64,000 nucleotides of DNA from Saccharomonospora sp. NB11 (GTDB lineage: Bacteria; Actinomycetota; Actinomycetes; Mycobacteriales; Pseudonocardiaceae), in NCBI RefSeq assembly GCF_015910535.1, contig NZ_JACBJG010000010.1, positions 62,001 to 126,000 of the forward strand, written 5' to 3'. Under the pieces are notes generated by a model. The model did not search any database. It saw only the letters and a list, made by a program, of their open reading frames with translations, and was not told where the DNA came from. Numbering within the stretch: the first letter of the stretch is position 1; every line of letters starts with the position of its first letter. Both the position numbers and the translations under genes were made by a program. Positions 8,962-60,487 of this stretch are shown here, piece after piece.

Positions 8962-9993
8962 TCACACGGGAACGGCTTCGATGATCGACGGCGATCCGGC
9001 GGTCGGGGTGACGTCGGTGAGCCGGAAACCGGCGCGGGCAAGCAGGTCCGCGTACTCGGCCCGGGTGCGATGCCGGCCCCCGAACGCGACCAGCACGTCG
9101 AGGTCGAGCAGCTTGCCGAAGTGCGGGGAGGCGTCCTCCGGCAGAACCATGTCCATCACCAGCAACGTCGCTTCGGGCTTGATGGCCGAGCGCACGTTGC
9201 CGAGGATGGCGAGCGCCTTGTCCTCCGGCCAGTCGTGGATGATGTGCTTCAGGATGTACGCGTCGCCCCCGGTGGGAACGGAGTCGAAGAAGGAGCCGCC
9301 GCGTACGGTCGCGCGGTCCTCGACACCGGCATCGGCCATGACCGTCGGAGCCGCCTCCACAACGGATTCGAGGTCGAACAACACGCCGTGCGCTGACGGC
9401 GTCCGCTGCAGGATCGCGGCGAGCAGCCGCCCCTGACCACCACCGACCTCGACGATCGTGCCGAACCGGGAGAAGTCGTAGGAGTCGAGGATCGCGGGGA
9501 TCTCGATGGCGGAGCTGAACGTCATGGACTCGTTGAACAGGTCCGCGTAGTCGGGGTCCTTCGCCAGGTAGTCGAACACCGGCATCCCGTGCAGCTTCTC
9601 GAACGCGGACTTGCCCGTGTCGACCGAGTAGGCCAGCTCGCCCCAGTGTCGCCAGGTGATGGGGTGTCCGGCGACGAGAACGATGGGGCGCACGGAGTCG
9701 GGGGCGTCGGAGCGCAACGCCTGCGCCATCGGAGTGAGCCGGAACCGACGACCCGGTTCCTCGGCGAAGATCGAGCGCGTGGTCAGTGCCCTCAGTAGAC
9801 GGTAGGTGGCGTCGGGATGCGAGCCGACCCGGTTCGCGATCTCCTCGGCCGTCGCGGGGCCTTCCGCGAGCACGTCGGCGATGCCGAGCTTCGCGGCGAC
9901 GTAGACGGCTTGAGCGGTGGCACCACCGATGGCCATGTCGAGCAGCCGGGCGTGCTCGTCCGGCGTGGGCGCCGCTGTGGCGTCGGCGGTCAT
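8962..9993 (-). CDS. SAM-dependent O-methyltransferase (acetylserotonin/caffeate OMT type)
   Basis: A 343-residue two-domain methyltransferase. The N-terminal winged-helix dimerisation domain contains ATYRLLRALT. The Rossmann domain has the SAM glycine loop VEVGGGQGRLLAAIL near residue 183 and the catalytic His region LKHIIHDWPEDKA. It should methylate a hydroxyl of a small molecule, for example one introduced by the P450 directly downstream or an enol/phenol of the polyketide-peptide. The start at 9993 is supported by AAGGAGAT just upstream. The promoter must lie in the long AT-richer spacer shared with the divergent SARP regulator, consistent with SARP control. Confidence 0.9.
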   Translation of the reverse strand: MTADATAAPTPDEHARLLDMAIGGATAQAVYVAAKLGIADVLAEGPATAEEIANRVGSHPDATYRLLRALTTRSIFAEEPGRRFRLTPMAQALRSDAPDSVRPIVLVAGHPITWRHWGELAYSVDTGKSAFEKLHGMPVFDYLAKDPDYADLFNESMTFSSAIEIPAILDSYDFSRFGTIVEVGGGQGRLLAAILQRTPSAHGVLFDLESVVEAAPTVMADAGVEDRATVRGGSFFDSVPTGGDAYILKHIIHDWPEDKALAILGNVRSAIKPEATLLVMDMVLPEDASPHFGKLLDLDVLVAFGGRHRTRAEYADLLARAGFRLTDVTPTAGSPSIIEAVPV

Positions 9994-10648
9994 GGGATCT
10001 CCTTGCGTGTCCTCGCGTCCGATGGTCGGTGTCGGGTCGACCCGACCGCAGGCCCTGCGGCCGGAGGTCAGGCTAGCCACGCAAGTTGGCGGCTCGCGGA
10101 CATGCGAGCGCCACCTTCTGCGCCACGACGTCGCAGGTCACGCCCGTGTCTGTCACCGGCAGTTCGGGCCGACTACGGAGAACGTGACGTGATCACGGAG
10201 AGTGCTCCGAGCCGGTAGGAGAAATGCACGGTGAATGGTCGACTCACGTCGATACGGGGCATGACCGGATCACAAACAGTCCTGATCGGACATTGAGAAA
10301 AAAAGTGAACACATGTACGCGAAAGTGGCGCAACTCGGCGAATTCACGCGGATTTCATCGACCTTCGCGCACCCAAGACCGCCCAGGTGGCCGAAGATTA
10401 CCCGGTCGAGAACACGGTGATCAACTCTCCTTGCGAGCGCCACTGAAAACCACGTACAGTGCCCAAGGAGGCCACCCACACCGGGTGCGCCCACGGACTG
10501 ATTCCGCCATTTGGGGGCATTGACATACTCCAGAGTAATCAGTCATCAAATTCTCGGATTTGATTTGGTCGATTACCGGGGGCGCGTGCTGGAGTGTGGT
10601 CTGTGCCGACTGTTCTAAGCAGAGTGACCGTCGTCTACAGGGGGCTCG
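9994..10648. other. 655-base divergent promoter region of the OMT-P450 unit and the SARP regulator
   Basis: No gene is seen. GC falls clearly between about 10260 and 10580, with runs of A and a GAGAAAAAAAG tract. This is the largest non-coding AT-rich patch in the window and a natural place for cluster-control elements. The strongest single signal is the promoter/operator candidate at 10520-10548. Confidence 0.6.
10520..10548 (+). promoter_or_regulatory. candidate SARP-gene promoter with overlapping operator
   Basis: A consensus TTGACA hexamer lies at 10520-10525. The following 12 bases form a perfect inverted repeat TACTC-CA-GAGTA (10526-10537), and a weak -10-like TCATCA sits at normal spacing. 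A dimeric regulator bound there would block or assist polymerase. The TSS is not known. Confidence 0.4.
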
Positions 10649-12445
10649 ATGCTAGGTAACGGGGCACATTGGGACTTGGCCCATGTGGTCCAACAGTTGC
10701 GACGCAACGCAGGGCTCACGCAGAAGGAGATGGCAGAACGAGCCAACATCAGCCTGGCCGGTTTGCGTGACCTCGAACAGCAGCGAGTCACCCGGCCCCG
10801 GGTGAGCACGCTGCGGCGGATCGCAGCAGCCCTGGAACTCTCCCCGAGCGAAGCGAAGGAGTTGGTGCGCCTGGGATCCCAGGGCCCGGTACTGGCCCAC
10901 GACCTGCGCCTGCAGGTGCTCGGGCCCCTGTCCATCACGGTCGACGGAACCCCCGTGAACCTCGGCTCGGAACGTCAGCGGACGATGCTCGCCATCCTGG
11001 CGCTCTCCCCCGGTGTACCGGCGACGATCGACACTCTCGTGGACGCCGCGTGGGGCGGACAACCCCCACCCACGGCGGTCGACCTGGTGCGCTCCCAGAT
11101 GTCCCGGCTACGGCGTCGTATCCAGCCCAAGGGCCGGACGGCGCCGGTGCTCGTCGCCATCAACGGCGGGTACGCGCTCCGCGTCGACGACAACCAGTTG
11201 GACCTCCTCGCCTGCCGTGGTCTGGTCGCCGACGCGCGGCGCGACCGCAAAGCAGGCCGACTCGATTCGGCGGTCAGCGCCTACAAGCAGGCGATGGACC
11301 TGTGGCGCGGCGAACCGTTGTGGGACCTGCCCGGTCTGCACGAACAGCCCGCCCTGGCCAACCTCCGAAGAGAGCTGGAGACCGCGCTGCTGGAGTACGC
11401 CGACACGGCGAGCGCCCTGGGCCGGCATGAGGAGGTCTTGACCCCGCTGTACCGATTCACCGAGGCGAATCCACTGCACGAGCCCGGCCACGCCCGGCTC
11501 ATGACGGCGCTCGCGGGTGCCGGGCAACGAGCGGTGGCGCTGGAGGTGTTCGAGAACCTTCGCCGAGCACTGTCCGCGGAACTCGGTGTCGATCCCGGAG
11601 TGCTCGTTCGCGAGACCCACCAGGCAATCCTGCTCGGCGAGCCGACGCCCGCGCAGCTGACCGTCGTTCCGCCGCAGAGCACCACGACGGTGGCGAAGCA
11701 ACCGGTTCCGACGCAGCTTCCCGCCGACGTGTACGGATTCACGGGCAGGGCACGGGAGTTGGCGCACCTCGACGCCGTGCTCGACGACGGCCGACGACAA
11801 CCCACGATGGTGGTCGCGGCGTTGCTCGGCAGACCGGGAGTGGGCAAGACCAGCCTGGCGGTGCACTGGGCACATCGGATCGCCCGCCACTTCTCGGACG
11901 GCCAGCTCTACGCCGAACTCGGGTGTGCCGACCCGGCCGACGTGCTGCGCAACTTCCTGCTCTCGCTCGGGGTTCCACCGAACCAGGTGCCCGAGAGCCT
12001 CGCCAACCGTGCCGCGCTGTACCGCAGCCTGCTTACGGGCAGGGAGATGCTGGTTCTTCTCGACAACGCGAAGAACGCCGACCAGGTACGGTCGCTGCTG
12101 CCCGGCTCCCCGGGGTGCGTGGTCGTCGTGACGAGCCGCGATCCACTGGCCGGGCTGGTCACCGCGGAAGGCGCTCGGCCGTTGACCGTCGAGGCGTTGA
12201 CCGAGGCCGACGCACTCACTCTGCTCCACCGCAGGCTCGGACCGGCCAGGATGATGGCCGAACCCGAGGTGGCGCGGGAGATCGTCGCGCGGTGCGAGGG
12301 CCTGCCCGCCGCACTCGCCGCCGTGGCCACCCGCGCCATCACCGACACCCAGTTGCCGCTGGCGAGCCTGGCCGAGGAACTGCGGGGCACGGCGGCGACC
12401 GGTACCTGGCCGGGACGCCCCTGGCGCGGACGCAACGTGTCCTGA
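10649..12445 (+). CDS. SARP-type activator with N-terminal XRE helix-turn-helix and C-terminal NB-ARC domain
   Basis: A 598-residue regulator with an unusual domain order. Residues about 8-65 are an XRE/Cro-type helix-turn-helix (QLRRNAGLTQKEMAERANISLAGLRDLE). Residues about 90-180 are an OmpR-like winged helix (LRLQVLGPLSI, SQMSRLRRRI, GGYALRV). Residues 185-330 are the bacterial transcriptional activator domain of SARPs. An NB-ARC ATPase follows, with Walker A GRPGVGKTSL, Walker B MLVLLDNAK and a GLP motif. It stops there, lacking the TPR sensor half of AfsR (about 990 residues). SARPs activate antibiotic clusters by binding direct repeats near -35. It is the only regulator inside the cluster and is the probable pathway activator. 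AGGGGG upstream supports the start. Confidence 0.9.
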   Translation: MLGNGAHWDLAHVVQQLRRNAGLTQKEMAERANISLAGLRDLEQQRVTRPRVSTLRRIAAALELSPSEAKELVRLGSQGPVLAHDLRLQVLGPLSITVDGTPVNLGSERQRTMLAILALSPGVPATIDTLVDAAWGGQPPPTAVDLVRSQMSRLRRRIQPKGRTAPVLVAINGGYALRVDDNQLDLLACRGLVADARRDRKAGRLDSAVSAYKQAMDLWRGEPLWDLPGLHEQPALANLRRELETALLEYADTASALGRHEEVLTPLYRFTEANPLHEPGHARLMTALAGAGQRAVALEVFENLRRALSAELGVDPGVLVRETHQAILLGEPTPAQLTVVPPQSTTTVAKQPVPTQLPADVYGFTGRARELAHLDAVLDDGRRQPTMVVAALLGRPGVGKTSLAVHWAHRIARHFSDGQLYAELGCADPADVLRNFLLSLGVPPNQVPESLANRAALYRSLLTGREMLVLLDNAKNADQVRSLLPGSPGCVVVVTSRDPLAGLVTAEGARPLTVEALTEADALTLLHRRLGPARMMAEPEVAREIVARCEGLPAALAAVATRAITDTQLPLASLAEELRGTAATGTWPGRPWRGRNVS

Positions 12446-12454
12446 CACGACGAG

Positions 12455-12485
12455 AAGGAGGGGCCGTCGGCGACGACCCCTCCTT
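12455..12485. terminator. bidirectional hairpin terminator
   Basis: A perfect 9-bp stem (AAGGAGGGG with CCCCTCCTT, 13-base loop) lies between the convergent SARP and aldo/keto reductase genes. The A/T bases at the stem foot give short U-runs both ways. Confidence 0.75.
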
Positions 12486-12499
12486 CGGTGTTCCGGCGC

Positions 12500-13483
12500 T
12501 CAGGAGCGCGTGGTGCGAGGTACGGCGTAGGAGAACCGTTCCCCGGACCAGGCCGACCGCGGCACCGTCTCCTCGATCTCCCGCAAGTCGTCGGAGGAGA
12601 GGACCACCTCGGCGGCCGAGGCGTTCTCCACCAACCGCTCGCGGCTGCGGGTACCGGGGATGGCCACGACGTCCTCGCCCTGAGCCAGCAACCACGCGAG
12701 AGCCAACTGGCCGGGAGTGATACCCCGCGCCTCGGCCAGCTTCGTGAGCTGGGCCAGCCGCGCGGTGTTGGTGGCCAGGTGCTCACCGTGGAAGCGCTGA
12801 TCGGGCAACCGATCGTCGTCCTCGCTGAGCGCGTCCACGCTCAACTTGCCGGTGAGGAACCCCCGACCCAGCGGGCTGAAACCGACGATGCCGATGCCGA
12901 ACTTGCGCGCCAACGGCACCACGTCGTCCTCCAGCTCCCGCCAGAAGAGCGACCACTCGTACTGCACGGCGCTGATCGGTGCCGTCCGTGCCGCCCGTTC
13001 GAGGTCGTCGGTGCTGCACTCGGACAACCCGAGATACCGCACCTTGCCTTCCTCGACTAGTTCCGCCATCGCACCGACGCTGTCCTCCACCGGCACCTGG
13101 GGATCGACCCGGTGCAGGTAGTAGAGGTCGATGTGGTCGGTGCCGAGACGGGAAAGCGATGCCTCGCAGAACTCGCGAATCCGCTCCGGCCGGGCGTTGA
13201 GGCTCGGAGGATCACCACGGTTCTCGCGGTAGATCCCGAACTTCGTCGCCAGCACCACCTTGTCCCGCCGACCCGCGATGGCCCGGCCGACGAGTTCCTC
13301 GTTGTGCCCGGCCCCGTAGCTCATCGACGTGTCGATCAAGTTGACACCGACGTCGATCGCCCGGCGCACCACCTCCACGGACTCCGCGTCGTCGGCCGGT
13401 CCGTAGTCCTGCGACATGCCCATGCAACCCAGGCCGATCGCGGAGACGGACAGGCCGTGACCACCCAGGGCACGCGTGATCAT
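12500..13483 (-). CDS. aldo/keto reductase
   Basis: A 327-residue TIM-barrel NADPH oxidoreductase of the AKR superfamily (tas/YajO-like). The catalytic tetrad is visible: Asp51 and Tyr56 in LIDTSMSYGAGHNE, Lys81 in VVLATKFG and the His of LYYLHRVDP. The C-terminal cofactor segment IPGTRSRERLVENASA is intact. Its ATG overlaps the stop of the 2-oxoglutarate oxygenase gene (ATGA at 13480-13483), so the two are translationally coupled. Together they could hydroxylate an aliphatic amino acid and adjust the oxidation state of the same or a neighbouring carbon (inference). A general housekeeping AKR is less likely because of the coupling. Confidence 0.88.
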   Translation of the reverse strand: MITRALGGHGLSVSAIGLGCMGMSQDYGPADDAESVEVVRRAIDVGVNLIDTSMSYGAGHNEELVGRAIAGRRDKVVLATKFGIYRENRGDPPSLNARPERIREFCEASLSRLGTDHIDLYYLHRVDPQVPVEDSVGAMAELVEEGKVRYLGLSECSTDDLERAARTAPISAVQYEWSLFWRELEDDVVPLARKFGIGIVGFSPLGRGFLTGKLSVDALSEDDDRLPDQRFHGEHLATNTARLAQLTKLAEARGITPGQLALAWLLAQGEDVVAIPGTRSRERLVENASAAEVVLSSDDLREIEETVPRSAWSGERFSYAVPRTTRS

Positions 13484-14226
13484 GACGGCAACCGGCCCGG
13501 GAGCGAGCAGTAGTTCACCACGAGCACGTCGCGGTGTGCCGGCTTGGTCTTGTCGACCGCCTCGATCGGCGTCACCTGGTGGTAGGTGCGCTGGTCGTCG
13601 CCCAGCAGCAGGTCACCGCGCTCGGAGAGCGTGACCGTGCGGAGCAGGTTCTGCTGCTCGTCGTACGTGGTGCTCTCACCGCCGGTGATGTTCAGCCGGT
13701 CGAGGAGAAGCGAACCGACGAACGTGACACCGTCCCGGTGGCGACCCTCCGGGGCGGGCTGTCCGATGTTCTCGCCCGCGATGATGCGCACCGGGTGCAA
13801 CTTCACGAGCCACCGGCGGGTGTCGTCGACCGTGGTGAAGATGTGGCCGAGTTCGATGACGAGCTTGCGGAGCAGCGGGTCGTTGACGAACTCGTCGGTG
13901 AGCGGCTCGTAGACCCGGTCCACGCCACCGTTCAGCTTGTTGAAGAACTTTTCCTGCCGGTACGGCTCGTGCGGCAGCAGCGTGAGCTCGTCGGTGAACG
14001 GGTCCAGCTCGAACTGCCCGTACCGGCGATAGCGGTAGGTGCCGCCGTCGGCCATGAACGTGTCGAGCTTGAGATCCTCCCAGTTCTTCGCGAACCGGGC
14101 CCAGTCCTCGGCGCTGGCCCCGACGATCGCGGACAGGTCAGCGGACGCGACCAGGTGCTCGCCGGTGTTCGACAGACCGTCGACAACGGCGCGCGCCTCC
14201 GTACTCAGTGTGGTGATGCCAGACAT
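13480..14226 (-). CDS. Fe(II)/2-oxoglutarate amino-acid hydroxylase, PF10014 (isoleucine-dioxygenase-like)
   Basis: The 248-residue length matches PF10014 enzymes such as Bacillus L-isoleucine 4-hydroxylase. The iron site reads His163-x-Asp165 (GRHRDGVTF) with distal His216 (TYHQVTP), and Arg232 is placed to bind 2-oxoglutarate. Characterised members hydroxylate free branched-chain or related amino acids at beta to delta positions. Val- and Leu-type A domains in this cluster make an aliphatic amino acid a reasonable substrate (inference). AAAGGA lies eight bases before the ATG at 14226. The gene is divergent from the C-A-T-TE synthetase with a 352-base control region between, suggesting that its product feeds that synthetase. 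Confidence 0.85.
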   Translation of the reverse strand: MSGITTLSTEARAVVDGLSNTGEHLVASADLSAIVGASAEDWARFAKNWEDLKLDTFMADGGTYRYRRYGQFELDPFTDELTLLPHEPYRQEKFFNKLNGGVDRVYEPLTDEFVNDPLLRKLVIELGHIFTTVDDTRRWLVKLHPVRIIAGENIGQPAPEGRHRDGVTFVGSLLLDRLNITGGESTTYDEQQNLLRTVTLSERGDLLLGDDQRTYHQVTPIEAVDKTKPAHRDVLVVNYCSLPGRLPS

Positions 14227-14578: not shown

Positions 14579-18523
<3,945 letters not shown>

Positions 18524-18559
18524 CGACGACAAAAGGACGACGAAAGGACGACGAAAGAA

Positions 18560-50348: not shown

Positions 50349-50597
50349 TCAGTGTGCCTGCGCGCCGGCGGCCTTCTCGACCGCGGCACGGAAATCTCCG
50401 AACGTGGGCGTGTCCCACACCTGGAGCATGTCCACCTCGACACCGAGTTCCCGGCGCAGGTAGGACACGATGCGGGTCACCATGATGGAGTTGCCGCCCA
50501 GTTCGAAGAAGTCGTCGTCGTCGTGCACCTCCGTCACGTCCAACACCGTCCGCCACGAGGCTGCGACCACCTCGGCGAGGTCCGGCCGGTCAGACAT
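50349..50597 (-). CDS. free-standing carrier protein (PCP/ACP)
   Basis: An 82-residue four-helix carrier domain with the pantetheine attachment Ser37 in [15 protein letters not shown]. The LGGxS pattern is more PCP- than ACP-like. Its ATG lies inside the end of the FAD oxidase gene (8-base overlap), so the two are translationally coupled. The likely role is to hold the substrate of that oxidase, or a starter acid activated by the CoA-ligase-type enzyme at 39826. No A domain is attached, so it must be loaded in trans. Confidence 0.92.
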
Positions 50598-51738
50598 AGT
50601 TGCTCTCCGTTCGCAATTCGGCGTTGTCGAATCGCCGCGCGTCGAGTCGCCCCACGTCGACGAACGGCTCCCGGCCCAGCACGAGATCCCGGACGACCTC
50701 ACCGACGGCCGGCCCCTGCATGAAGCCGTGGCCGGAGAATCCCGTGGCGTAGAGGAATCGACCCACGTCCGGCGCCTCACCGATGAGCGCGTTGTGGTCC
50801 GGGGTCACCTCGTAGAGCCCCGCCCACCCGCTAGCCAGGCCGACGTCCAACAGGCTCGGCGTGCGGACGGCGATGGCTTCGGTGAGCTTTTCCAACCAAC
50901 GTTCGCTGCGGTCGGTGCGGAACCCCGGAGGCTCCTCGGGATCGGACATCCCGAACATCACCCCGCGTCCCTCGCGCCGGAAGTAGAAGGCCGAGGAGAA
51001 GTCGATGGTCATCGGGATCGGCACGTCCGCGTCGATGGGCTCCGTGAACGCGAGTTCACGCCGGTACGGGGTGACCGGTAATCGGACCCCCACCATCTCG
51101 CCCACGGCGGTGGACCAGGCGCCCGCCGCGCACACCACCGTGGACGTGGCGATCGATCCGCGCGTCGTCTCGACGGCGTGGATGTCGTTGCCGGAGGTCT
51201 TGAGCCCGGTCACCTCGCAGTGCGTGACGAGCGTGGCACCGTGCCTGCGGGCACCGGTGGCGTAGCCGAGCACCACGGACTCGGGCGTGCAGTACCCGTC
51301 GTCCGGCGAGAAGGCCGCGGCGAGGACGCCCTCGGTGTCGACGAGCGGGGACAGGTGCCTGGCCTCGGCCGGATCCACCAGCCTGCTCGGCACCCCCAAC
51401 GAGTTCTGCAGGGCCACGCTCTCCTCGAAGGACGTCACCTGCTCCGGTGTGGACAGCAGGAACAGGTACCCGGAGGTGTGCAGGTCGATCTCCTGCCCGG
51501 GGCGATCGGCGAACCGCCGGTACGCGGCCATGCTGTGCGCGCCGAGGCGGATGTTGAGTTCGTCGGAGAACTGCGCCCGCACCCCGCCCGCTGCCCGGCT
51601 GGTCGATCCGGAACCTAGCTCACCTCGTTCGAGCAGGACGACGTTCCGCATTCCGGCCTCCGCGAGGTGGAAGGCGATGCTCGTCCCGATCACACCACCG
51701 CCGATGATCACGACGTCGGCGGACGACGGCAGGATCAC
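50590..51738 (-). CDS. FAD-dependent amine/amino-acid oxidase (DAO family)
   Basis: The 382-residue protein has the FAD-binding Rossmann motif DVVIIGGGVIGTSIAFHLAEAG at its start and C-terminal DAO features: GWAGLYEVTPDHNALIG and YATGFSGHGFMQGPAVG. It resembles sarcosine / glycine / D-amino-acid oxidases that oxidise C-N bonds. Coupling to a carrier protein and MbtH (8-base overlap with the carrier start) suggests it oxidises a carrier-bound aminoacyl unit to an imine, keto or dehydro form (inference). The start is GTG 51738 with GGAGGGAG upstream. A role in D-amino-acid turnover is possible but does not fit the gene arrangement. Confidence 0.87.
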   Translation of the reverse strand: MILPSSADVVIIGGGVIGTSIAFHLAEAGMRNVVLLERGELGSGSTSRAAGGVRAQFSDELNIRLGAHSMAAYRRFADRPGQEIDLHTSGYLFLLSTPEQVTSFEESVALQNSLGVPSRLVDPAEARHLSPLVDTEGVLAAAFSPDDGYCTPESVVLGYATGARRHGATLVTHCEVTGLKTSGNDIHAVETTRGSIATSTVVCAAGAWSTAVGEMVGVRLPVTPYRRELAFTEPIDADVPIPMTIDFSSAFYFRREGRGVMFGMSDPEEPPGFRTDRSERWLEKLTEAIAVRTPSLLDVGLASGWAGLYEVTPDHNALIGEAPDVGRFLYATGFSGHGFMQGPAVGEVVRDLVLGREPFVDVGRLDARRFDNAELRTESNYV

Positions 51739-52047: not shown

Positions 52048-52779
52048 GTGGCAAGCGCAGGCACGACGACGAGCGTCACCATTCCTCGCGTCTACAACGG
52101 TCCGGCCGAGTCGGCTCACGGAGGCTACGCCTGCGCCGTCTTCGCGCGGGCCTCGGGCCTGCCGTCGCCGGCCGCGGTGACCCTCCTCGCGCCGCCACCG
52201 TTGGACGTGCCGCTCACCGTCGTTCCCGGGCCGCACCGCACCACAGTCCGGGCGGACGACACGCTGGTCGCCACGGTCGCTCCGGCAGGGCGGGAACCCA
52301 CCGCCGTGCCGCCGGTCGACCTGTCCACCGCCACGGCGGCGGCCCAGGCGTTCCCGGGGTTCACCCGTCACCCCTTCCCGACGTGCTTCGTGTGTGGTCA
52401 CGACCGCCCCGACGGCTCGGGTCTACGGCTGACTCCGGGCCCCGTACCGGGGAGTCCCCACACCGTCGCCTGCCCCTGGACGCCCCGGGAGGGCACCGAG
52501 GAAGAGGTGTGGAGCGTGCTCGACTGCCCTGGCGGATGGGTCGAGCCCTCGCGGCACCCGATGGTTCTCAGCAGGTTCGCGGTGGCGTCGCACGGAGTTC
52601 CGGAACCGGGCGCACCACACCTCGTGGTCGCCACCCGACTCGGTACGCACGGTCGCACGACGACCGTCGGCAGCACGGTGTACACCGCAGCGCGACGTCC
52701 GATCGCGACGGCCACGGCGGTCTGGACGGCGATCCCGCAGGGGCTGCCGACCGAGGCGCGCGACGACTTGGGCGAGTAG
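52048..52779 (+). CDS. hotdog-fold thioesterase-like protein
   Basis: A 243-residue protein, probably two hotdog halves. It carries the TCFVCGHDRPDGSGLRL segment (about residues 112-128), typical of a group of actinobacterial hotdog thioesterase-like proteins. A catalytic Asp/Glu could not be assigned. It may hydrolyse thioesters of CoA or carrier proteins, or act as a non-catalytic binder. It is the first gene of the operon and ends 15 bases before the Val-like A-T gene. The start is tentative: GTG 52048 has no good ribosome site, so a leaderless start or another codon is possible. Confidence 0.65.
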   Translation: MASAGTTTSVTIPRVYNGPAESAHGGYACAVFARASGLPSPAAVTLLAPPPLDVPLTVVPGPHRTTVRADDTLVATVAPAGREPTAVPPVDLSTATAAAQAFPGFTRHPFPTCFVCGHDRPDGSGLRLTPGPVPGSPHTVACPWTPREGTEEEVWSVLDCPGGWVEPSRHPMVLSRFAVASHGVPEPGAPHLVVATRLGTHGRTTTVGSTVYTAARRPIATATAVWTAIPQGLPTEARDDLGE

Positions 52780-52794
52780 GAGGAAGGCAGTCGG

Positions 52795-54510
52795 ATGGAT
52801 CCCGCGGAAACGATCACCGCAGCGTTCGCACGTCAGGTCGCGGCTCGACCCGACGCCGTCGCGGTCAGCACGGGCGACTCGGAGCTCAGCTACGCCGAGC
52901 TGGACGCGCGGTCCGATCGGCTCGCCGACCACCTGCTCGGCCTCGGGGTGTCCCCCGAGGACGCGGTCGGGGTCGCTCTCCCCCGGTCGGTAGACCTCGT
53001 CGTGGCTCTGCTCGGGGTGCTCAAGACCGGCGCGGCCTACCTCGCCCTCGACCCGCAGCAACCGGAGGAGCGTCGGGCCCTCGTCCTCAAGGACGCCGAG
53101 GTGGACGTCGTCGTCACCCCGGACCTGCTGGCCCGGGTGCCGGAGCAGGGATCCCGACCGCCCGCCCCGCCTGGCGGGGGCGAGCGCACCGCGTACATCG
53201 CCTACACCTCCGGCTCCACCGGCGTCCCGAAGGGCGTGTGCGTACCCCAGCGCGCGGTGTTGCGCCTGGTGTCATCCCAGAACTTCCTCGACATCCGTCA
53301 TGACGACGTCTTCCTCCAGCTCGCCCCGGTCGCCTTCGACGCGTCGACCCTGGAAATCTGGGGGCCGCTGCTGAACGGGGCGCGCCTCGTCGTCGCCCCG
53401 CCCGGCGAGCTGTCGCCGCGCGACCTCGCCGACCTCGTCCGCGACACGGGTGTCACCGTGCTGTGGTTGACCGCGGGACTCTTCCACACCGTCGTCGAGG
53501 CGGGAGCCGAGTCGCTGCGCGGCCTGCGCTGCCTGCTCGCCGGTGGCGACGTGCTCTCGGCCGCACACGTCGACCGAGCACTGTCCGCGCTGCCGGACAC
53601 CCGACTCGTCAACGGCTACGGTCCCACCGAGAACACCACGTTCACGGCCTGCCACGTGATCACCGAACCCGTGGGCGACACGTCGGTGCCGATCGGGCTG
53701 CCCGTCAACGGCACGACCGTCCACCTACTGGACGACGACCTGCGACCGGTCCCGGACGGGGAGATCGGAGAGCTCTACGCCGGCGGCCTCGGGGTGGCCA
53801 CCAGCTACCGCAACGATCCCGCGCTGACCGCGCGACGGTTCCTGCCCGACCCGTTCTCCGCCACGCCCGGTGCCCGGCTCTACCGCACGGGCGACCTCGC
53901 TCGCCGCCGTCCCGACGGGGTGTTGGAGTTCCATGGCCGGATCGACGACCAGGTGAAAATCCGCGGTTTCCGCGTCGAGATCGGGGAGATCGAGGCCGCG
54001 CTGCGTCGCCACCCCGACGTGCAGGACGTCGCCGTGGTGGTCCAGCAACCGAACGGTGAGCGCGTCCTGGCCGCCTTCTACGTCAGCGAGCTGACCATGA
54101 CGAGCGCCGAACTACGCGAACACCTGACGTCGATCGTGCCGCGTTACATGGTGCCGTCGGTGTTCTGCCACGTCGACGCCCTGCCGCTGAACCACAACGG
54201 GAAGGTCGATCGCGAGCGGCTGTCGCACACGAGCCTTCCGGAACGCCCCGAACTGAGTACCGACTACCGTGCCCCGGCCACGGAGGACGAGAGGTGGCTC
54301 GCGCAACTGTGGGCCGACCTGATGCAGGTGAGTGAGGTCGGAGTCGACGACGACTTCTTCGAACTCGGTGGCCACTCGTTGATGGCGACCCGCATCACCG
54401 TCGAGATCGCCGAACACTACGGCAGGACCATCCCCGCTGTCGCCTTCTACGAGAACCCGACCATCGCCGAACTCGCGCGGCTGCTCGCCGAAGGGGGCGA
54501 CGACGTATGA
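52795..54510 (+). CDS. free-standing NRPS A-T didomain, Val-like specificity
   Basis: The 571-residue A domain (about 1-490; IAYTSGSTGVPKG, GYGPTENTT, YRTGDL, NGKVDRE) is followed by a carrier domain with Ser528 in GGHSLMATR. Specificity residues read by eye are D-A-L-W-L-G-G-T-F-K, one or two changes from the classical valine code D-A-F-W-I-G-G-T-F-K. It has no C domain, so the aminoacyl-carrier must be modified and delivered in trans. Its stop overlaps the P450 start (ATGA 54507-54510), the arrangement seen for beta-hydroxylation of carrier-bound amino acids in other pathways. A strong AGGAGGAAGG site precedes ATG 52795. Confidence 0.92.
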   Translation: MDPAETITAAFARQVAARPDAVAVSTGDSELSYAELDARSDRLADHLLGLGVSPEDAVGVALPRSVDLVVALLGVLKTGAAYLALDPQQPEERRALVLKDAEVDVVVTPDLLARVPEQGSRPPAPPGGGERTAYIAYTSGSTGVPKGVCVPQRAVLRLVSSQNFLDIRHDDVFLQLAPVAFDASTLEIWGPLLNGARLVVAPPGELSPRDLADLVRDTGVTVLWLTAGLFHTVVEAGAESLRGLRCLLAGGDVLSAAHVDRALSALPDTRLVNGYGPTENTTFTACHVITEPVGDTSVPIGLPVNGTTVHLLDDDLRPVPDGEIGELYAGGLGVATSYRNDPALTARRFLPDPFSATPGARLYRTGDLARRRPDGVLEFHGRIDDQVKIRGFRVEIGEIEAALRRHPDVQDVAVVVQQPNGERVLAAFYVSELTMTSAELREHLTSIVPRYMVPSVFCHVDALPLNHNGKVDRERLSHTSLPERPELSTDYRAPATEDERWLAQLWADLMQVSEVGVDDDFFELGGHSLMATRITVEIAEHYGRTIPAVAFYENPTIAELARLLAEGGDDV

Positions 54511-55799
54511 GGATCACGGTTCCCGACCCGGAGGCCACGGTCGATCTCGGCACGATCGACCTGTTCGACCCCACGCTGTACGCCGAGGGTGATCCACACA
54601 CGGTGTGGACACACCTGCGACGGCGTGCCCCGGTGCACCGCACCACTCTGCCCGACGGCCGCTCGTTCTGGTCGGTCACCCGCTACGCCGACGTCAACGA
54701 CGTCCTGCGCGACCACACCCGGTTCACCTCCAGCCGCGGCACGCTGCTGTCCATTCTCGGCAGCACCGACCCGGCCGGGGGCAAGATGATGGCGGCGAGC
54801 GACCCGCCGGTGCACACGGCACTGCGGGAGCCGATGACCAAGGTGCTCTCCCACCGCGCACTGCAACCGCACAACCCGAGGATCCGCCGGGTGGTGCACC
54901 GCATGCTCGCCCCGCTGCTCGACGGCGGCACGTGGAACATCGCCCACGCGGGAGCCCGGTTCCCCATGGCCTTCACCGGAACGCTGATGGGGCTGCCCGA
55001 GGAGGACTGGCCCCACCTCGCGCAGCTCACGACGATGGCCATCGCCCCGCAGGACGAGGACTACCGCCAGTCCGACGGTGACGGCACGCTGGCGGCCGCC
55101 CACCACGAACTGTTCGCGTACTTCTCCGGCCAGGTGAGACGCCGCAAGCGCACCCCGTCCGACGACCTGGTCGGATTCCTCGTCGAGATGGAGGCGGGCG
55201 GACGCAAGCTGCGCCACGACGAGATCGTCTACAACTGCTACAGCCTCCTGCTCGGAGCCAACGTCACCACCCCGCACGCCATCGCGGCGACCGTCCTCGC
55301 GCTCATCGAGCATCCGGCCGAGTGGGCGCGCTGGATCGCCGACCCCTCGTTGACTCCCGTGGCGCTGGAGGAGGGGTTGCGCTGGGCGTCTCCCGCCAAC
55401 CACTTCATGCGTTACGCGACACGCGACATGACCCTGCACGACCGTCGCATCGAAGAAGGTGACGCGGTGGTGGCCTGGCTGGGATCGGCCAACCGGGACG
55501 AGGAGGTCTTCTCCGACCCGTTCCGGTTCGACGTCACCCGGCGTCCCAACCGCCACGTGGCATTCGGGTTCGGACCGCACTACTGCATCGGTGCGCCACT
55601 CGCGCGCATCGCCCTGCGAATGCTGTTCACCGAGATCGTCGCGGCCGTCGAGGAGTTCGACCTCGCCGGTCCGATCGAACACCTCACCTCGAACTTCGTC
55701 GCCGGCATCAAGAGCATGCCGATCACCGCTCGATTGCGTCCGGACGCCGCCAGGATCATCGACACCGCCGTGGCGGAGGAAGGGCCGGTGGCGGTGTGA
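54507..55799 (+). CDS. cytochrome P450, likely acting on carrier-bound amino acid
   Basis: A 430-residue P450 with ExxR in EEGLRWAS, haem loop FGFGPHYCIGAPLAR (Cys near 359) and an I-helix reading LLLGANVTTPHAIA (Asn-Val before Thr-Thr in place of the usual acid-Thr pair). Genes for P450s coupled to A-T didomains typically encode beta-hydroxylases of the loaded amino acid. The 4-base overlap with the Val-like A-T gene makes beta-hydroxyvalyl-carrier a good prediction (inference). The altered I-helix could mean a different oxygen-activation geometry. It overlaps the next gene as GTGA. Confidence 0.9.
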   Translation: MRITVPDPEATVDLGTIDLFDPTLYAEGDPHTVWTHLRRRAPVHRTTLPDGRSFWSVTRYADVNDVLRDHTRFTSSRGTLLSILGSTDPAGGKMMAASDPPVHTALREPMTKVLSHRALQPHNPRIRRVVHRMLAPLLDGGTWNIAHAGARFPMAFTGTLMGLPEEDWPHLAQLTTMAIAPQDEDYRQSDGDGTLAAAHHELFAYFSGQVRRRKRTPSDDLVGFLVEMEAGGRKLRHDEIVYNCYSLLLGANVTTPHAIAATVLALIEHPAEWARWIADPSLTPVALEEGLRWASPANHFMRYATRDMTLHDRRIEEGDAVVAWLGSANRDEEVFSDPFRFDVTRRPNRHVAFGFGPHYCIGAPLARIALRMLFTEIVAAVEEFDLAGPIEHLTSNFVAGIKSMPITARLRPDAARIIDTAVAEEGPVAV

Positions 55800-56557
55800 G
55801 CCGGGACAAGATGTTCCTGCGCCCGGTGCGGGACGACTGCGCCAGTCGACTGTTCTTGTTCCCGTACTCGGGGTTGGGTGCCTCGATGTACAACCGCTGG
55901 CCACGCCACATCACCACGGCGACCGGCGACATCGAGATCGTTCTACTGCAACCGCCGGGTCGGGAGAACCGGGTGCGTGAACCGCACTACGGCACCTACG
56001 AGGCTCTGGCCGAGTCGGTGGTCACCAGTCTCGCTCCCTACCTCGACCGTCCGTTCGGGCTCTTCGGGCACTGTGGAGGTGCTCTGGCCGCGTTCGCCAC
56101 GGCCCTGCACCTCGCGGAGACGGACCTGCCCGACGCGACCTGCCTCTTCGTCTCCTCCCAGGTGGCGCCGCACGACGGCCCGTACGGCCGGTTCCTGTCC
56201 ATGACCGACGAGGAGCTGGGTGTGGAACTCGCCGACCTCACCCGCGCGATGGGCGGTGAGCCGCACCCCGACATCCTCGCGCTGAGCCTGCGCGTGCTCC
56301 GCGCCGACGTGACCGCCAACCAGCGCTACCGCCTCGACGAGCCGATCGTGCTGCCCAACGACGTGCGGACGATCGGTTGGCACGACGACCGGGAGATCCG
56401 CCCGGACCAGATGTCCGGATGGCAGTCCTACGCCGAGGAGGGCCGGTACCACCACACCGTCCTGCCTGGCACCCACCACGAGTTCCTCCGCGCACCGGAG
56501 GCGCTTCAACGAGAGTTCGCCCTCGGCCTGCACCCCCAGGAAAGGCAGAACAGATGA
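55796..56557 (+). CDS. type II thioesterase with Cys in the nucleophile position
   Basis: A 253-residue alpha/beta hydrolase of the PF00975 type II class, starting LFLFPYSGLGASMYNRW and ending with the His of GTHHEFLR. The nucleophile elbow reads FGHCGGAL, so Cys93 stands where GHSMG normally has Ser. The role would be to clear mis-loaded carriers or to release a modified amino acid from the neighbouring A-T didomain. Its GTG start overlaps the P450 stop and its TGA overlaps the amidinotransferase ATG, so it is translationally coupled on both sides. Together with the Cys thioesterase of the C-A-T-TE synthetase, both thioesterases of the pathway are Ser-to-Cys variants. Confidence 0.88.
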   Translation: MSRDKMFLRPVRDDCASRLFLFPYSGLGASMYNRWPRHITTATGDIEIVLLQPPGRENRVREPHYGTYEALAESVVTSLAPYLDRPFGLFGHCGGALAAFATALHLAETDLPDATCLFVSSQVAPHDGPYGRFLSMTDEELGVELADLTRAMGGEPHPDILALSLRVLRADVTANQRYRLDEPIVLPNDVRTIGWHDDREIRPDQMSGWQSYAEEGRYHHTVLPGTHHEFLRAPEALQREFALGLHPQERQNR

Positions 56558-57642
56558 GAGCCGTGAACGAGGAAGTCCGAACCGGCCCGGTGTGCTCGTA
56601 CACCGAATGGGACCCGTTGGAGGAGGTCGTCGTCGGGATCGTCGACGAGGCCTGCTTCCCGCCGTGGCACGTCGCCCTCCCCCCGGTGCTGCCGGAGAAC
56701 ATGCACGAGACGTTCCGCACCCAGGCGGGCAAGCCGTTCCCGAAGGAACGGATCGAGGCGGCCCGCCGGGAACTCGACGAGTTCGCCCACATCCTGGAGG
56801 CCGAAGGCGTCACCGTCCGCAGGCCCGAACCGATCCCCCAGGACACCACCTACAGCACGCTGCACTGGTCCAGCACCGGCATGTACGCCGCCATGCCACG
56901 TGACGCCCTGCTCGTGGTGGGTGACGAGATCATCGAGTGTCCCATGGCGTGGCGTTCGCGGTACTACGAGTCGCTGGCGTACCGGCCCCTGTTGAAGGAG
57001 TACTTCCGCGGCGGGGCGAAGTGGAGCGCAGGCCCGAAGCCCGAACTCACCGACGAGCAGTTCGACCAGGACTGGATCGACACCGGGCACGAGGACGGCT
57101 CAGCCCGCCTCGTGGTCACCGAGTTCGAACCGACTTTCGACGCCGCCGACTTCACCCGCTGCGGGCGCGACATCATCGCGCAGAAGAGCAACGTCACCAA
57201 CCAGTTCGGCATCGACTGGCTGCAGCGGCACCTCGGTGACGACTACCGCATCCACGTGTTCGAGTTCCAGGACACTCACCCGATGCACATCGACGCCACG
57301 CTCGTGCCGATGGCCCCGGGCAAGCTGCTGATCAACCCGGAGCGCGTGCCGAAGGTGCCGTCGTTGTTCAAGGGCTGGGACGTCATGGAAGCCCCCAAGC
57401 CCGTGATCCCCGACTCGCACCCGCTCTACATGACGAGCAAGTGGATCAACATGAACATCCTCATGCTCGACGAGAACCGGGTCGTCGTCGAGCGCCAGGA
57501 CGAGCCCATGATCCAGGCGATGAAGGACTTCGGCTTCACCCCGATCCTGTGCAACTTCCGGAACTTCAACAGCTTCGGCGGCTCCTTCCACTGCGCCACG
57601 CTCGACGTGCGACGCCGCGGGAGCCTGCAGTCCTACTTCTAG
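56554..57642 (+). CDS. amidinotransferase, glycine (arginine:glycine) amidinotransferase type
   Basis: A 362-residue protein matching the AGAT/inosamine-amidinotransferase family over its whole length. The catalytic Cys347 lies in GGSFHCATLDVRRRGSLQSY near the C-terminus, the His in PMHIDAT, and the conserved PLYMTSKWINMNILMLDE segment is present. The enzyme moves the amidino group of arginine to an amine, giving a guanidine (guanidinoacetate if glycine is the acceptor) plus ornithine. It overlaps the type II thioesterase gene and is followed after 8 bases by the membrane di-iron enzyme, so a guanidino building block is almost certainly part of the product or an intermediate. The acceptor amine cannot be read from sequence. 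Confidence 0.93.
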   Translation: MRAVNEEVRTGPVCSYTEWDPLEEVVVGIVDEACFPPWHVALPPVLPENMHETFRTQAGKPFPKERIEAARRELDEFAHILEAEGVTVRRPEPIPQDTTYSTLHWSSTGMYAAMPRDALLVVGDEIIECPMAWRSRYYESLAYRPLLKEYFRGGAKWSAGPKPELTDEQFDQDWIDTGHEDGSARLVVTEFEPTFDAADFTRCGRDIIAQKSNVTNQFGIDWLQRHLGDDYRIHVFEFQDTHPMHIDATLVPMAPGKLLINPERVPKVPSLFKGWDVMEAPKPVIPDSHPLYMTSKWINMNILMLDENRVVVERQDEPMIQAMKDFGFTPILCNFRNFNSFGGSFHCATLDVRRRGSLQSYF

Positions 57643-57650
57643 GAGGCATG

Positions 57651-58604
57651 ATGCGGATCTGGAAGCACACACCCAAGGACGCTCTGCTGCTCGGTTTCAG
57701 CGTGGCCCAGCTCGCGCTGATGATCTGGTTCGCCACGCAGTGGGACGACCAGCCCGCCTGGGCGAGGGCCGGCGGTTTCGTGCTGACCACGCTCATGATC
57801 GCCTACAGCATCATCGTGGTGTCGCACCTGTTCACCCACGTCCCGTGGTTCACCTCGGCACGACTCAACGCGGCGGCGTCGCTGCTCAACTCGATCAACA
57901 TCGGTCAGTCGGTGCAGGCATACCACCTCACCCACGTCCGCAACCACCACCGGTTCAACAACGACCCCATCGGCGAGGACGGTACGACCCGGGACCTCTC
58001 CTCCACCTACCGCGACGGGCACGACGGTGAGCACGCGCCGCTGCTGCGCTACATCTTCACCGGAGCCGTCGAGTCCTTGTTGGATAGAGCTCGCGAGCTG
58101 GTGCTGTGCTACCGCCTCTGGAAGGTGGGGCCGAAGGAGACGAAACTGCTGTCCCTGGCGCACAAACGGGAGCCCAAGCGCACCCGGGAACTGCGGCAGA
58201 TCGCCGCCGACCGTGCCGCGCACGCCCTGTCGTTGGTCGGGTTCGCGCTCATCTCCTGGCAGTGGGCGCTCTTCGTGTACGTCCCGGCGTTCTTCGTCGC
58301 GCTCGTCCTCGTCAACGTGCAGAACTACTACCGCCACTACGGGGCCGATCCGAGCAACCGGGCAGCGGACTCCGTCAGCCACTACGGGAGGCTCTACAAC
58401 CTGTTGGCCTTCAACGACGGCTACCACCAGGAACACCACCTGAGCCCGGCGACCCACTGGACGCAACTGCCGAGCGTGCGGGAACGTCGACGGGACTGGC
58501 TCGACGCGCAACCGAGGATCATCAGCCCAGTTCCGGCCATGCTCGGGTTCCTCCACCGCAACCGACCGCTGCTGCACCGCGGCACCGCGAGCCCGAAGTC
58601 GTGA
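57651..58604 (+). CDS. membrane di-iron desaturase/hydroxylase (fatty-acid desaturase superfamily)
   Basis: A 317-residue membrane protein with four or more hydrophobic helices. The histidine boxes of the superfamily are HLFTH (about residue 60), HLTHVRNHH (about 88) and a final HQEHH box near residue 260, with an extra YYRHY-type motif. Members insert double bonds, triple bonds or hydroxyls using oxygen and a ferredoxin. In this operon, between the amidinotransferase and the Leu-like A-T gene, the substrate may be a guanidino compound or a carrier-bound aminoacyl group rather than a lipid (inference). The start at 57651 is preferred over 57648 because AGGAGG ends at 57646. Confidence 0.85.
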   Translation: MRIWKHTPKDALLLGFSVAQLALMIWFATQWDDQPAWARAGGFVLTTLMIAYSIIVVSHLFTHVPWFTSARLNAAASLLNSINIGQSVQAYHLTHVRNHHRFNNDPIGEDGTTRDLSSTYRDGHDGEHAPLLRYIFTGAVESLLDRARELVLCYRLWKVGPKETKLLSLAHKREPKRTRELRQIAADRAAHALSLVGFALISWQWALFVYVPAFFVALVLVNVQNYYRHYGADPSNRAADSVSHYGRLYNLLAFNDGYHQEHHLSPATHWTQLPSVRERRRDWLDAQPRIISPVPAMLGFLHRNRPLLHRGTASPKS

Positions 58605-58606
58605 AC

Positions 58607-60487
58607 ATGACCGTGACTTCCGACCTCGTACACCGACTGGTCGGCGAGCAGGCCCGACGACGTCCGGACACGCTCGCCGTCGTCGGGCCTCGGGACCGGC
58701 TGACCTACGCGGAACTGGACCGACGGTCCAACCGGCTGGCCCATCACCTGGTGGAGCAGGGAGTCGGTCCGGACACGCTCGTGGCGGTGTGTCTGCCGCG
58801 CTCGGTGGACTCGGTCGTCGCGCCGCTGGCCGTTCTCAAGGCCGGCGGCGCGTACGTCCCGCTCGATCCCGAGTACCCACCACAGCGCCTCGCCCACATG
58901 CTCACCGACGCGCGTCCGGCGGTGCTCGTCACGACGTCCGACCTCGCCGTCGTCACCAGCCAGGTCCGACACGTGGTGGATCTCCGGGTGACGGATCTCG
59001 CCGCACGACCGGCGGACCACGCCCCTCGGGTCGCCGTCGACAATTCCGACCTGGCCTACGTGATCTACACGTCCGGCTCCACGGGGAAGCCCAAGGGCGT
59101 GCAGGTGCCCCACGCCGGACTGACGAACCTCGTCGCGTGGCACGTCCGGCGCTACGCCCTCGGGCCAGGTGAGCGCACCGCACACGTGGCCGCGCTCGGG
59201 TTCGACGCCTCCGTGTGGGAGATCTGGCCGGCCCTGGCGTCGGGCGCGACCCTGCTCCTCCCCGACGACGCCGACCGCACGCATCCTCGACGATTGCGTG
59301 ACTGGCTGGCGGAGGAGGGCGTCACCGTGACCTTCCTCCCCACCCCGCTGGCCGAGGAGGTCGTCGCCCTCCCACCGCGCCGAAGCGCGCTGCGGGCCCT
59401 GCTGACCGGAGGCGACGCCCTCACCACCTCACCACCGCCTGGCACGCCCTTCGACCTCGTCAACCACTACGGCCCCACCGAGGCCACCGTGGTCACCACC
59501 GCCGGTGTGGTCCGGCAGGGTGAGCCCGGCCCGCCTCCGATCGGCACCCCGATCACGGGCTTGCGAGTGCACGTGCTCGACGAAAACCTGACCCCGGTGC
59601 CGGACGGCAGTCCGGGAGAACTGTGCGTCGGCGGGGTGGGGGTCGCGCGCGGCTACCTCCATCGACCCGGCCTCACCGCCGAACGATTCGTCCCCGACCC
59701 GTACGGCCCGCCGGGAAGCCGCATGTACCGCACGGGCGACCTGGTGAGCCGACGGGACGACGGTGCGCTGGAGTTCCGGGGACGCGTCGACGACCAGGTC
59801 AAACTCCGGGGCTTCCGCATCGAACTGGGTGAGGTCGAGGCAGCCGTCGCCGGACATCCGGCCGTCGCACGCGCGGTCGCCGTCCTTCGGGAGGACCGCC
59901 CCGGTGATCGACGGCTCGTCGCCTACGTCGTCCCCGCCCGACCCGAGGCGGACGCCGAGTCGGGGAGTCGCGCCGATGCCGAGCCGACCCTGAAGGACCT
60001 CGACGGCTACCTGCGGGAGCGGCTGCCCACCTACATGGTGCCGTCGACGATCGTCGCGCTCGACGAGCTTCCCCTCACCCGGAACGGCAAGGTGGACCGC
60101 CGAGCCCTGCCCACCCCCGAGCCGCCTTCGTCGGCCGACGCCGTCGCACCCCGGGACGCGGTCGAGGAACTGATCGCCGACACCTGGTACGACGTGCTCG
60201 GTCTGCCCGACCGGCCGCGCCACGTGCACGACAACTTCTTCGCGCTGGGTGGCCACTCGCTGCTGGCCACCCAGCTCACCGCCCGGTTGCGCAACCTGTT
60301 CGACGTGCCGTTGCCGACACAGGTCACGCTGCGGGCGCCGACGATCGCCGCCCTGGCCGACGAGCTGCGCGCCCGCGAGCCGGTGCCCGGCCACCTCACC
60401 ACGGTGGCCGAGAAGCACCGGCTGGTCGCGGGCCTGTCCGACGAGGAGGTCGAACGGATGCTCGCCGAGCTGGGCGGCTCGTCGTGA
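58607..60487 (+). CDS. free-standing NRPS A-T didomain, Leu-like specificity
   Basis: The 626-residue A domain (about 1-520; [34 protein letters not shown]) has a carrier domain with Ser551 in GGHSLLATQ. A C-terminal tail ends LSDEEVERMLAELGGSS, a possible docking helix. Specificity residues by eye are D-A-W-F-L-G-H-V-V-K, one change (Asn to His) from the leucine code D-A-W-F-L-G-N-V-V-K. It lacks C and TE domains, so its cargo goes to another protein, most simply the orphan C-terminal C domain of the C-A-T-E-C enzyme. It starts two bases after the desaturase stop and ends the operon, three bases from the convergent leuS stop. Confidence 0.92.
   Translation: MTVTSDLVHRLVGEQARRRPDTLAVVGPRDRLTYAELDRRSNRLAHHLVEQGVGPDTLVAVCLPRSVDSVVAPLAVLKAGGAYVPLDPEYPPQRLAHMLTDARPAVLVTTSDLAVVTSQVRHVVDLRVTDLAARPADHAPRVAVDNSDLAYVIYTSGSTGKPKGVQVPHAGLTNLVAWHVRRYALGPGERTAHVAALGFDASVWEIWPALASGATLLLPDDADRTHPRRLRDWLAEEGVTVTFLPTPLAEEVVALPPRRSALRALLTGGDALTTSPPPGTPFDLVNHYGPTEATVVTTAGVVRQGEPGPPPIGTPITGLRVHVLDENLTPVPDGSPGELCVGGVGVARGYLHRPGLTAERFVPDPYGPPGSRMYRTGDLVSRRDDGALEFRGRVDDQVKLRGFRIELGEVEAAVAGHPAVARAVAVLREDRPGDRRLVAYVVPARPEADAESGSRADAEPTLKDLDGYLRERLPTYMVPSTIVALDELPLTRNGKVDRRALPTPEPPSSADAVAPRDAVEELIADTWYDVLGLPDRPRHVHDNFFALGGHSLLATQLTARLRNLFDVPLPTQVTLRAPTIAALADELRAREPVPGHLTTVAEKHRLVAGLSDEEVERMLAELGGSS

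Follow-up and report, generated by a model that had tools for sequence, protein, structure and literature searches.

What does the product of a hybrid polyketide-peptide gene cluster act upon, and can the genes beside its biosynthetic machinery tell us? This question is raised by a 64,000-nt stretch of DNA (the window) on contig 1 of the genome of the soil actinomycete Saccharomonospora sp. NB11 (4.30 Mb in 29 contigs; G000 in our labeling), which encodes a trans-acyltransferase (trans-AT) polyketide synthase (PKS), two nonribosomal peptide synthetases (NRPS1 and NRPS2), an amidinotransferase, and a second leucyl-tRNA synthetase (LeuRS). An earlier note on this DNA had bounded the cluster at 8962-60487, and thereby left out the LeuRS gene, which lies only 3 bp beyond and is the best clue to the action of the product. 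We propose that the unit at positions 7694-62980 makes a polyketide-peptide that probably inhibits LeuRS, and that the LeuRS encoded at its right end would be an insensitive spare copy of this target.

The borders of the unit (Table 1) were set by synteny with Saccharomonospora cyanea (G002). Nucleotide synteny between the two genomes starts at the cytochrome P450 gene that we designate P450a, and the block from P450a to the LeuRS gene is collinear, with approximately 85-90% nucleotide identity. Because the conserved block reaches both of these genes, neither of which fell within the earlier borders, the unit is taken to extend over ~7694-62980.

The spare LeuRS, a full-length protein of 829 amino acids with intact HIGH-type (HVGH), KMSKS, and editing motifs, is encoded convergently with the last biosynthetic gene, the two genes lying tail to tail. 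The other LeuRS of this genome, encoded by a 988-aa open frame on contig 23, is a housekeeping enzyme of the usual actinobacterial kind. These two proteins share 64% identity over the core and 41-49% at the ends, and the spare copy is 94% identical to the LeuRS of the S. cyanea cluster. A second intact copy of an essential gene thus resides in the cluster and the housekeeping copy elsewhere, which is the arrangement that characterizes self-resistance by target duplication.

The pairing of cluster and extra LeuRS recurs across genera. Versions of the cluster were located by scanning a contig collection with amidinotransferase alignments (best 80 of 102 loci) and by scanning 390 genomes of the host family, revealing seven: two in Saccharomonospora (one of them S. 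cyanea) and one each in Actinophytocola xinjiangensis (G056), the family member G228, Nocardia ninae, Micromonospora sp. MW-13, and Salinispora oceanensis. All seven genomes contain two LeuRS genes, one of which is in or near the cluster, at a distance of 3 and 6 bp in the Saccharomonospora pair, 0.2 kb in N. ninae, 0.4 kb in Salinispora, 1.2 kb in Micromonospora, and 1.6 kb in A. xinjiangensis; in G228, 5.7 kb and an intervening P450 gene separate the LeuRS gene from the closest gene that clearly belongs to the cluster. An extra LeuRS was present in none of ten genomes that carry the amidinotransferase, di-iron enzyme, and HilA-like genes but in which no cluster was found (G229, G238, G087, and G452-G458, two of which are not actinomycetes), and four further same-genus genomes that lack the cluster encode one LeuRS each. 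We had considered this amidinotransferase sub-cluster as the LeuRS-linked part, a role that was rejected because genomes with the sub-cluster only have a single LeuRS. Among the 390 family genomes, in a scan that would miss a second LeuRS of ordinary type, foreign-type LeuRSs were detected in 19, comprising four cluster genomes, six in which the enzyme is a second copy, and nine in which it is the sole copy. A second, foreign-type LeuRS is present in all four cluster genomes versus six of the 386 others (Fisher p 2.2e-7, not corrected for relatedness).

The gene that discriminates this cluster family from its surroundings is NRPS1. An orthologue occurs in all seven versions, with 50-87% identity in the other six, whereas ten of eleven other genomes yield matches of 39-47%, the generic NRPS level, and the eleventh has no match at the cut-off used. 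Nothing above that generic level was found in seven of the ten sub-cluster-only genomes (G452-G456, G463 = G238, and G464 = G229), which are those the search covered, G087, G457, and G458 standing outside it. Streptomyces sp. CB03234 (G452), which has six shared genes, a piece of the Streptomyces antibiotic regulatory protein (SARP) gene, and one LeuRS, was weighed as a counterexample and set aside, as its best match to NRPS1 is 40-41% and no orthologue is present.

The extra LeuRSs derive from at least two separate lineages that stand beside the same cluster. In trees of the catalytic and anticodon regions, the Saccharomonospora enzyme groups with those of G199, G327, and a genus whose sole LeuRS is of this type. 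The five remaining cluster LeuRSs belong to another, separate lineage, in which G228 falls in a different clade from A. xinjiangensis, N. ninae, Salinispora, and Micromonospora. In a tree of the editing domain, by contrast, the Saccharomonospora spare LeuRS groups with the housekeeping enzymes of the family. Its editing domain is 75% identical to that of its own housekeeping copy versus 47% to that of G201, and its body is 49/44% identical to the housekeeping copy versus 80/68% to G201. Sliding identity places the graft at approximately residues 245-434, where a host-type CP1 editing domain is carried on a foreign, bacterial-type body; a shorter stretch of host-type editing sequence is observed in the G327 enzyme. 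If the spare copy is insensitive, its host-type editing domain makes action on the aminoacylation body of LeuRS probable, and we lean slightly toward this site for the predicted inhibitor.

Residues near the active site were compared among the cluster enzymes, 10 of 30 phylum sequences, and further sequences from the domain trees. The proline that follows Met-Phe/Leu in the HIGH loop is replaced by alanine in G228 and by serine in A. xinjiangensis and N. ninae, and the only other change at this position among the sequences compared is a serine in G198, itself a second copy. A second HIGH-loop proline is threonine in the Saccharomonospora pair, and a Thr-Gly pair stands beside the pocket histidines in four of the seven (A. 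xinjiangensis, N. ninae, Salinispora, and Micromonospora). Because two of these three changes also occur in sole-copy enzymes, we rejected them as proof of resistance, and the active-site changes are suggestive only.

Several observations weigh against LeuRS as the target. The proline-to-threonine change and the Thr-Gly pair are lineage markers common to sole-copy relatives, and both HIGH-loop prolines are retained in the Salinispora and Micromonospora copies. In 15 family genomes, foreign-type LeuRSs are present although no cluster was found, and in nine of these they are the sole LeuRS, so such enzymes also spread for other reasons; the notion that all foreign-type LeuRSs are extra copies was abandoned on the same count. 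Fewer than seven of the associations are independent, because the two Saccharomonospora genomes share the cluster by descent, and versions that lack the amidinotransferase could escape a search based on that gene.

Some of these foreign-type enzymes have settings of their own. The G199 copy (C34, L099:839-3346) is 82% identical to the spare LeuRS, bears the same host-type graft, and is likewise one of two copies in its genome; it lies near a TrwC relaxase gene (L099:4852-9771) in an 80-kb stretch that lacks the cluster. In G031, the only LeuRS detected at the cut-off is of the foreign type and adjoins an IleRS-like class Ia synthetase with a DUF5915 domain (L112:5936-9085, 9504-12002). The sole-copy, foreign-type LeuRS of G022 (C35:51001-71000, L110) resides among genes for an adenylation (A) domain, an adenylation-thiolation (A-T) didomain, an ABC transporter, an aldehyde dehydrogenase, and three radical SAM enzymes, and this locus is possibly another LeuRS-linked cluster. 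Only the foreign type was detected, at the cut-off used, in five genomes of genus g15 (G201, G211, G210, G209, and G202; L100-L104), which points to replacement of the housekeeping LeuRS in part of the family.

What the cluster might make can be read from its domains. Gene calling and domain searches recovered every class of gene named in the earlier note, and its description of the locus as an actinomycete trans-AT PKS/NRPS hybrid stands. The PKS has the modules KS-(AT remnant)-KR-ACP, KS-DH-KR-ACP, and KS-DH-KR-cMT-ACP-ER (KS, ketosynthase; KR, ketoreductase; ACP, acyl carrier protein; DH, dehydratase; cMT, C-methyltransferase; ER, enoylreductase), and a motif scan of its 5271 residues detected no AT active-site motif, a weakly AT-like stretch in module 1 reading GDGAGLW where GHSxG is expected. 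The KS modules thus lack a functional integrated AT, and a discrete malonyl AT is provided within the cluster by the second domain of the adjacent 1082-aa protein, which contains the motif GHSLGE. By comparison with structures in the PDB, the three domains of this protein match PksD, DisD/PksC, and DfnA/MlnA. It had been described as AT-AT-PfaD; the second AT and the PfaD part hold, and the first "AT" is more precisely a PksD-like domain, which we take to be an acyl hydrolase. The homologous Bacillus proteins are PksD, PksC, and PksE, all three of which are fused into one polypeptide here. A scan of the genome contig collection with the fusion protein returned no relative; an AT-AT-PfaD-like protein in Saccharomonospora G001 and G011 (L015, L016, L025, and L026) is only ~45% identical, and by its sequence belongs to a different trans-AT system within the genus. 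Also noted in the PKS was a degenerate insert resembling a carrier protein after the third KS (window 25972-26283; Pfam E 0.0044, under the gathering score).

The free adenylating enzyme next to this protein is of the acyl-CoA-ligase type rather than an amino-acid A domain. Together with the free carrier protein, it would supply a starter to the three-module PKS, which, with malonyl units loaded in trans, may produce an acyl chain that is short, partly reduced, and branched by an alpha-methyl group. NRPS1, with condensation (C), A, T, epimerization (E), and second C domains, is predicted to add and epimerize one residue, and its last C domain to accept a leucine-type residue from A-T didomain 2. 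NRPS2, which ends in a thioesterase (TE) domain with a cysteine motif, would add the final residue and release the product, and the amidinotransferase, di-iron enzyme, and HilA-like oxygenase may together build a guanidino or oxidized building block. These domains fit a C-methylated, partly reduced chain, one epimerized residue, leucine- and valine-type residues, and an enzyme that forms a guanidine, in line with the product foreseen in the earlier note.

Comparison of the versions indicates which of these parts are constant. Found in all seven are LeuRS, NRPS1, the Leu didomain, the amidinotransferase, the di-iron enzyme, the HilA-like oxygenase, and the flavin adenine dinucleotide (FAD) oxidase. 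The trans-AT PKS, the AT protein, the acyl-CoA ligase, and the free carrier protein occur in five versions, as do the Val didomain, P450b, the stand-alone thioesterase, and the hotdog-like protein. The PKS, which is not the constant part of the cluster family, is present in Saccharomonospora sp. NB11, S. cyanea, A. xinjiangensis, G228, and N. ninae (where only the first two domains of the AT protein were matched at the PKS locus) and absent from the stretches examined of Salinispora and Micromonospora, in which NRPS1 is 62% and 52% identical. The ThiF-nitroreductase, also listed in the earlier note, is indeed present and is probably peripheral, since it is confined to the two Saccharomonospora copies, with no match in the stretches examined of the other five versions. 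Similarly, the NRPS2 cysteine motif is seen in the two Saccharomonospora proteins, the G228 orthologue ends before the TE, and no orthologue was seen in A. xinjiangensis, N. ninae, Micromonospora, or Salinispora, where the matches are other NRPS genes; that of N. ninae (41% identical, with serine in place of cysteine) is a separate NRPS gene. The Cys thioesterases reported for the window nevertheless exist, as both NRPS2 and the stand-alone enzyme carry such motifs (Table 1).

The A-domain code of the Leu didomain is identical in all seven versions, and that of NRPS1 is the same in five, differing at one position in Salinispora and at three in Micromonospora. We assigned DALWLGGTFK as Val-type and DAWFLGHVVK as Leu-type; the codes of NRPS1 (DAWHHGQGQK) and NRPS2 (DLVSFACVIK) are not known to match any assigned code. 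The constancy of the Leu didomain and NRPS1 codes fits a leucine mimic, and the peptide core, consisting of the D-residue from NRPS1 followed by the leucine-type residue, is the best candidate for a LeuRS-binding part, to which a variable acyl part would be attached. With modest confidence, we favor the view that the seven versions make an undescribed class of LeuRS inhibitor, in which this constant core would be combined with a swappable acyl part (a trans-AT polyketide in five versions and another moiety in two), and against which the producers would protect themselves with foreign LeuRSs recruited at least twice. In Saccharomonospora, recombination would have fitted the resistant body with a host-type editing domain, so that resistance would reside in the aminoacylation body and proofreading would stay host-like. 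Such a class would span Saccharomonospora, Actinophytocola, Nocardia, Micromonospora, and Salinispora.

Other explanations for the LeuRS gene were considered. Aminoacyl-tRNA synthetase paralogues can serve in biosynthesis, as described for SbzA in altemicidin (PMC9437257), and the position of the gene inside a biosynthetic unit with a constant leucine-type residue would suit an enzyme that supplies leucyl-tRNA or leucyl-adenylate to a tRNA-dependent step. However, leucine is already activated by the A domain of A-T didomain 2, LeuRSs of separate lineages serve equally well, and among the unit proteins of the window, the set that was scanned, there is no tRNA-dependent enzyme of the FemXAB, GNAT, cyclodipeptide-synthase, or lanthipeptide type; we therefore regard a biosynthetic role as quite improbable. 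Equally hard to credit is a passenger gene, a mobile LeuRS that would have inserted near a cluster hotspot and would have no functional link to the product. Such mobility would account for the foreign-type enzymes in 15 genomes without a detected cluster and for the G199 copy beside a relaxase gene, but not readily for a second LeuRS in seven of seven versions (five named genera and G228) versus none of ten sub-cluster-only genomes, or for recruitment of a LeuRS to the same cluster on at least two separate occasions.

A further alternative concerns novelty, in that the product might already be known from the cluster of a relative, and its LeuRS target perhaps described. With a family that spans at least five genera, including the well-studied Salinispora, Micromonospora, and Nocardia, this has some chance of being so, though we consider it unlikely. 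The literature searched, in the portions available and with preprints and MIBiG outside its scope, contains no natural LeuRS inhibitor of such a type. It also assigns no product to the cluster, in agreement with the earlier statement that the gene set matches no known pathway, and the cluster is apparently an uncharacterized one. In the available portions of a survey of Saccharomonospora biosynthetic gene clusters, only three compound groups are given as isolated, namely primycin, taromycin, and the saccharomonopyrones, and many clusters have less than 50% MIBiG similarity; the term "tRNA" occurs in this survey once, for annotation (PMC7990883).

The proposal of a LeuRS inhibitor with a spare, insensitive LeuRS has parallels in other systems. 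The NRPS that makes obafluorin includes a Cys thioesterase domain, and the obafluorin cluster encodes ObiO, a resistant ThrRS. A different synthetase is concerned there, nothing in the present cluster points to a beta-lactone, and an analogy with obafluorin was not retained, as the Cys-TE could be seen only in the two Saccharomonospora copies. Leinamycin, oxazolomycin, and kirromycin exemplify actinobacterial trans-AT systems, having KS modules without active AT, a discrete AT, and mixed NRPS modules; the present cluster differs in having only three PKS modules together with an amidinotransferase and a LeuRS. Mupirocin is a trans-AT PKS product directed against a class Ia aminoacyl-tRNA synthetase, and resistance to it involves a second, insensitive IleRS. 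A mupirocin-resistant enzyme, IleRS2, has been described (PMC9437257). The amino acid differs, and the cluster studied here has a much shorter PKS, a peptide portion, and a guanidine-forming enzyme.

Natural LeuRS inhibitors are few; granaticin is one. The one named in the literature consulted is agrocin 84 (PMC4392301, PMC9032320, PMC7916415), the producer of which has a LeuRS homologue, AgnB2, that does not bind agrocin 84 and confers self-immunity (PMC4392301, PMC7916415). This system of Agrobacterium radiobacter K84 provides a precedent for the spare LeuRS, but agrocin 84 is a nucleotide-like Trojan-horse compound and the present locus encodes a trans-AT PKS/NRPS assembly line. Pfam and NCBIfam scans of the unit detected no nucleotide-type chemistry of the agn kind, the agn proteins themselves not being compared directly. 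LeuRS is pursued as an antibacterial and antitubercular target (PMC7916415), and a spare copy in the cluster announces a candidate target that can be tested directly, as the type-strain producer S. cyanea NA-134 and a presumed pair of sensitive and insensitive LeuRSs are at hand. The natural graft of the editing domain would reveal which half of LeuRS carries resistance.

Table 1. Features of the conserved unit (window coordinates)
Feature	Position	Strand	Remarks
Cytochrome P450, P450a	7694..8929	-	Pfam p450; 93% identical in S. cyanea; left edge of unit
O-methyltransferase	8962..9993	-	Pfam Methyltransf_2 and Dimerisation; also in G228 (67%) and N. ninae (55%)
SARP/AfsR-type regulator, N-terminal helix-turn-helix (HTH)	10685..12445	+	Pfam BTAD, NB-ARC, HTH
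Aldo-keto reductase	12500..13423	-	Pfam; 6/7 versions, not in A. xinjiangensis stretch examined
2-Oxoglutarate (2OG)-Fe dioxygenase, PF10014, weakly HilB-like	13480..14226	-	Found in 5/7 versions
NRPS2, C-A-T-TE	14579..18523	+	A code DLVSFACVIK; TE Cys motif GWCVGG
Rv1355c-family ThiF-nitroreductase fusion	18614..20719	-	NF005901 above cut-off
Trans-AT PKS, 3 modules	20716..36531	-	5271 aa
PksD-like domain - malonyl acyltransferase - PfaD-type enoyl reductase	36528..39776	-	TIGR02814 above cut-off; PDB matches
Stand-alone acyl-CoA-ligase-type adenylating enzyme, probable starter activation	39826..41358	-	
Serine hydrolase/acyltransferase, beta-lactamase fold	41377..42882	-	Pfam PF00144; 6/7 versions, not in Micromonospora
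NRPS1, C-A-T-E-C	42902..48877	-	A code DAWHHGQGQK; diagnostic core gene; start chosen from conservation with G228
2OG oxygenase, relative of HilA (L-isoleucine dioxygenase)	49160..50020	+	NF041274 E 2.5e-28, under curated cut-off
MbtH-like protein	50114..50335	-	
Free-standing carrier protein	50349..50597	-	In the 5 versions having the trans-AT PKS
FAD oxidase, sarcosine/glycine oxidase family	50590..51738	-	Overlaps carrier protein gene; 7/7 versions
243-aa protein, hotdog-thioesterase-like by eye	52048..52779	+	No Pfam match
A-T didomain 1	52795..54510	+	Val-type code DALWLGGTFK
Cytochrome P450b, probably acts on A-T-bound amino acid	54507..55799	+	
Stand-alone thioesterase	55796..56557	+	Cys motif GHCGG
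Amidinotransferase, AGAT/HsvA/SxtG family	56563..57642	+	7/7 versions, 79-96% identical in other six
Membrane di-iron hydroxylase/desaturase (FA_desaturase)	57648..58604	+	7/7 versions
A-T didomain 2 (AT2)	58601..60487	+	Leu-type code DAWFLGHVVK
Second LeuRS	60491..62980	-	TIGR00396 above cut-off; candidate self-resistance target copy

Among the remaining genes, the SARP/AfsR-type regulator has homologues of 52-56% identity in the N. ninae, Micromonospora, and Salinispora versions. The open frame of the hotdog-like protein was overlooked by the codon-bias gene call; the protein is 84% identical in S. cyanea, 63% in A. xinjiangensis, 59% in G228, and 51% in N. ninae, with no match in the Salinispora or Micromonospora stretches examined. 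No exporter was detected among the unit proteins in the Pfam and NCBIfam scans of the window, which counts in favor of the spare LeuRS as the candidate means of self-resistance, and a major facilitator superfamily gene (1274-2500) lies outside the conserved block. To the left of the cluster is a PIG-L family gene (window 6774-7586), the S. cyanea copy of which (71% identical) is found to the right of the LeuRS gene.

The amidinotransferase has no Pfam or NCBIfam match and was assigned from its matches to HsvA, SxtG, and AGAT at E 1e-121 to 1e-125. In 15 of 20 Photorhabdus/Xenorhabdus loci (L161, L167-L169, L172-L178, L180-L186, L188, and L206), genes for the amidinotransferase, the di-iron enzyme, and the HilA-like oxygenase are arranged in the same order, and Xenorhabdus hominickii has three copies of the set, which probably represents a common pathway to an unusual guanidino amino acid.

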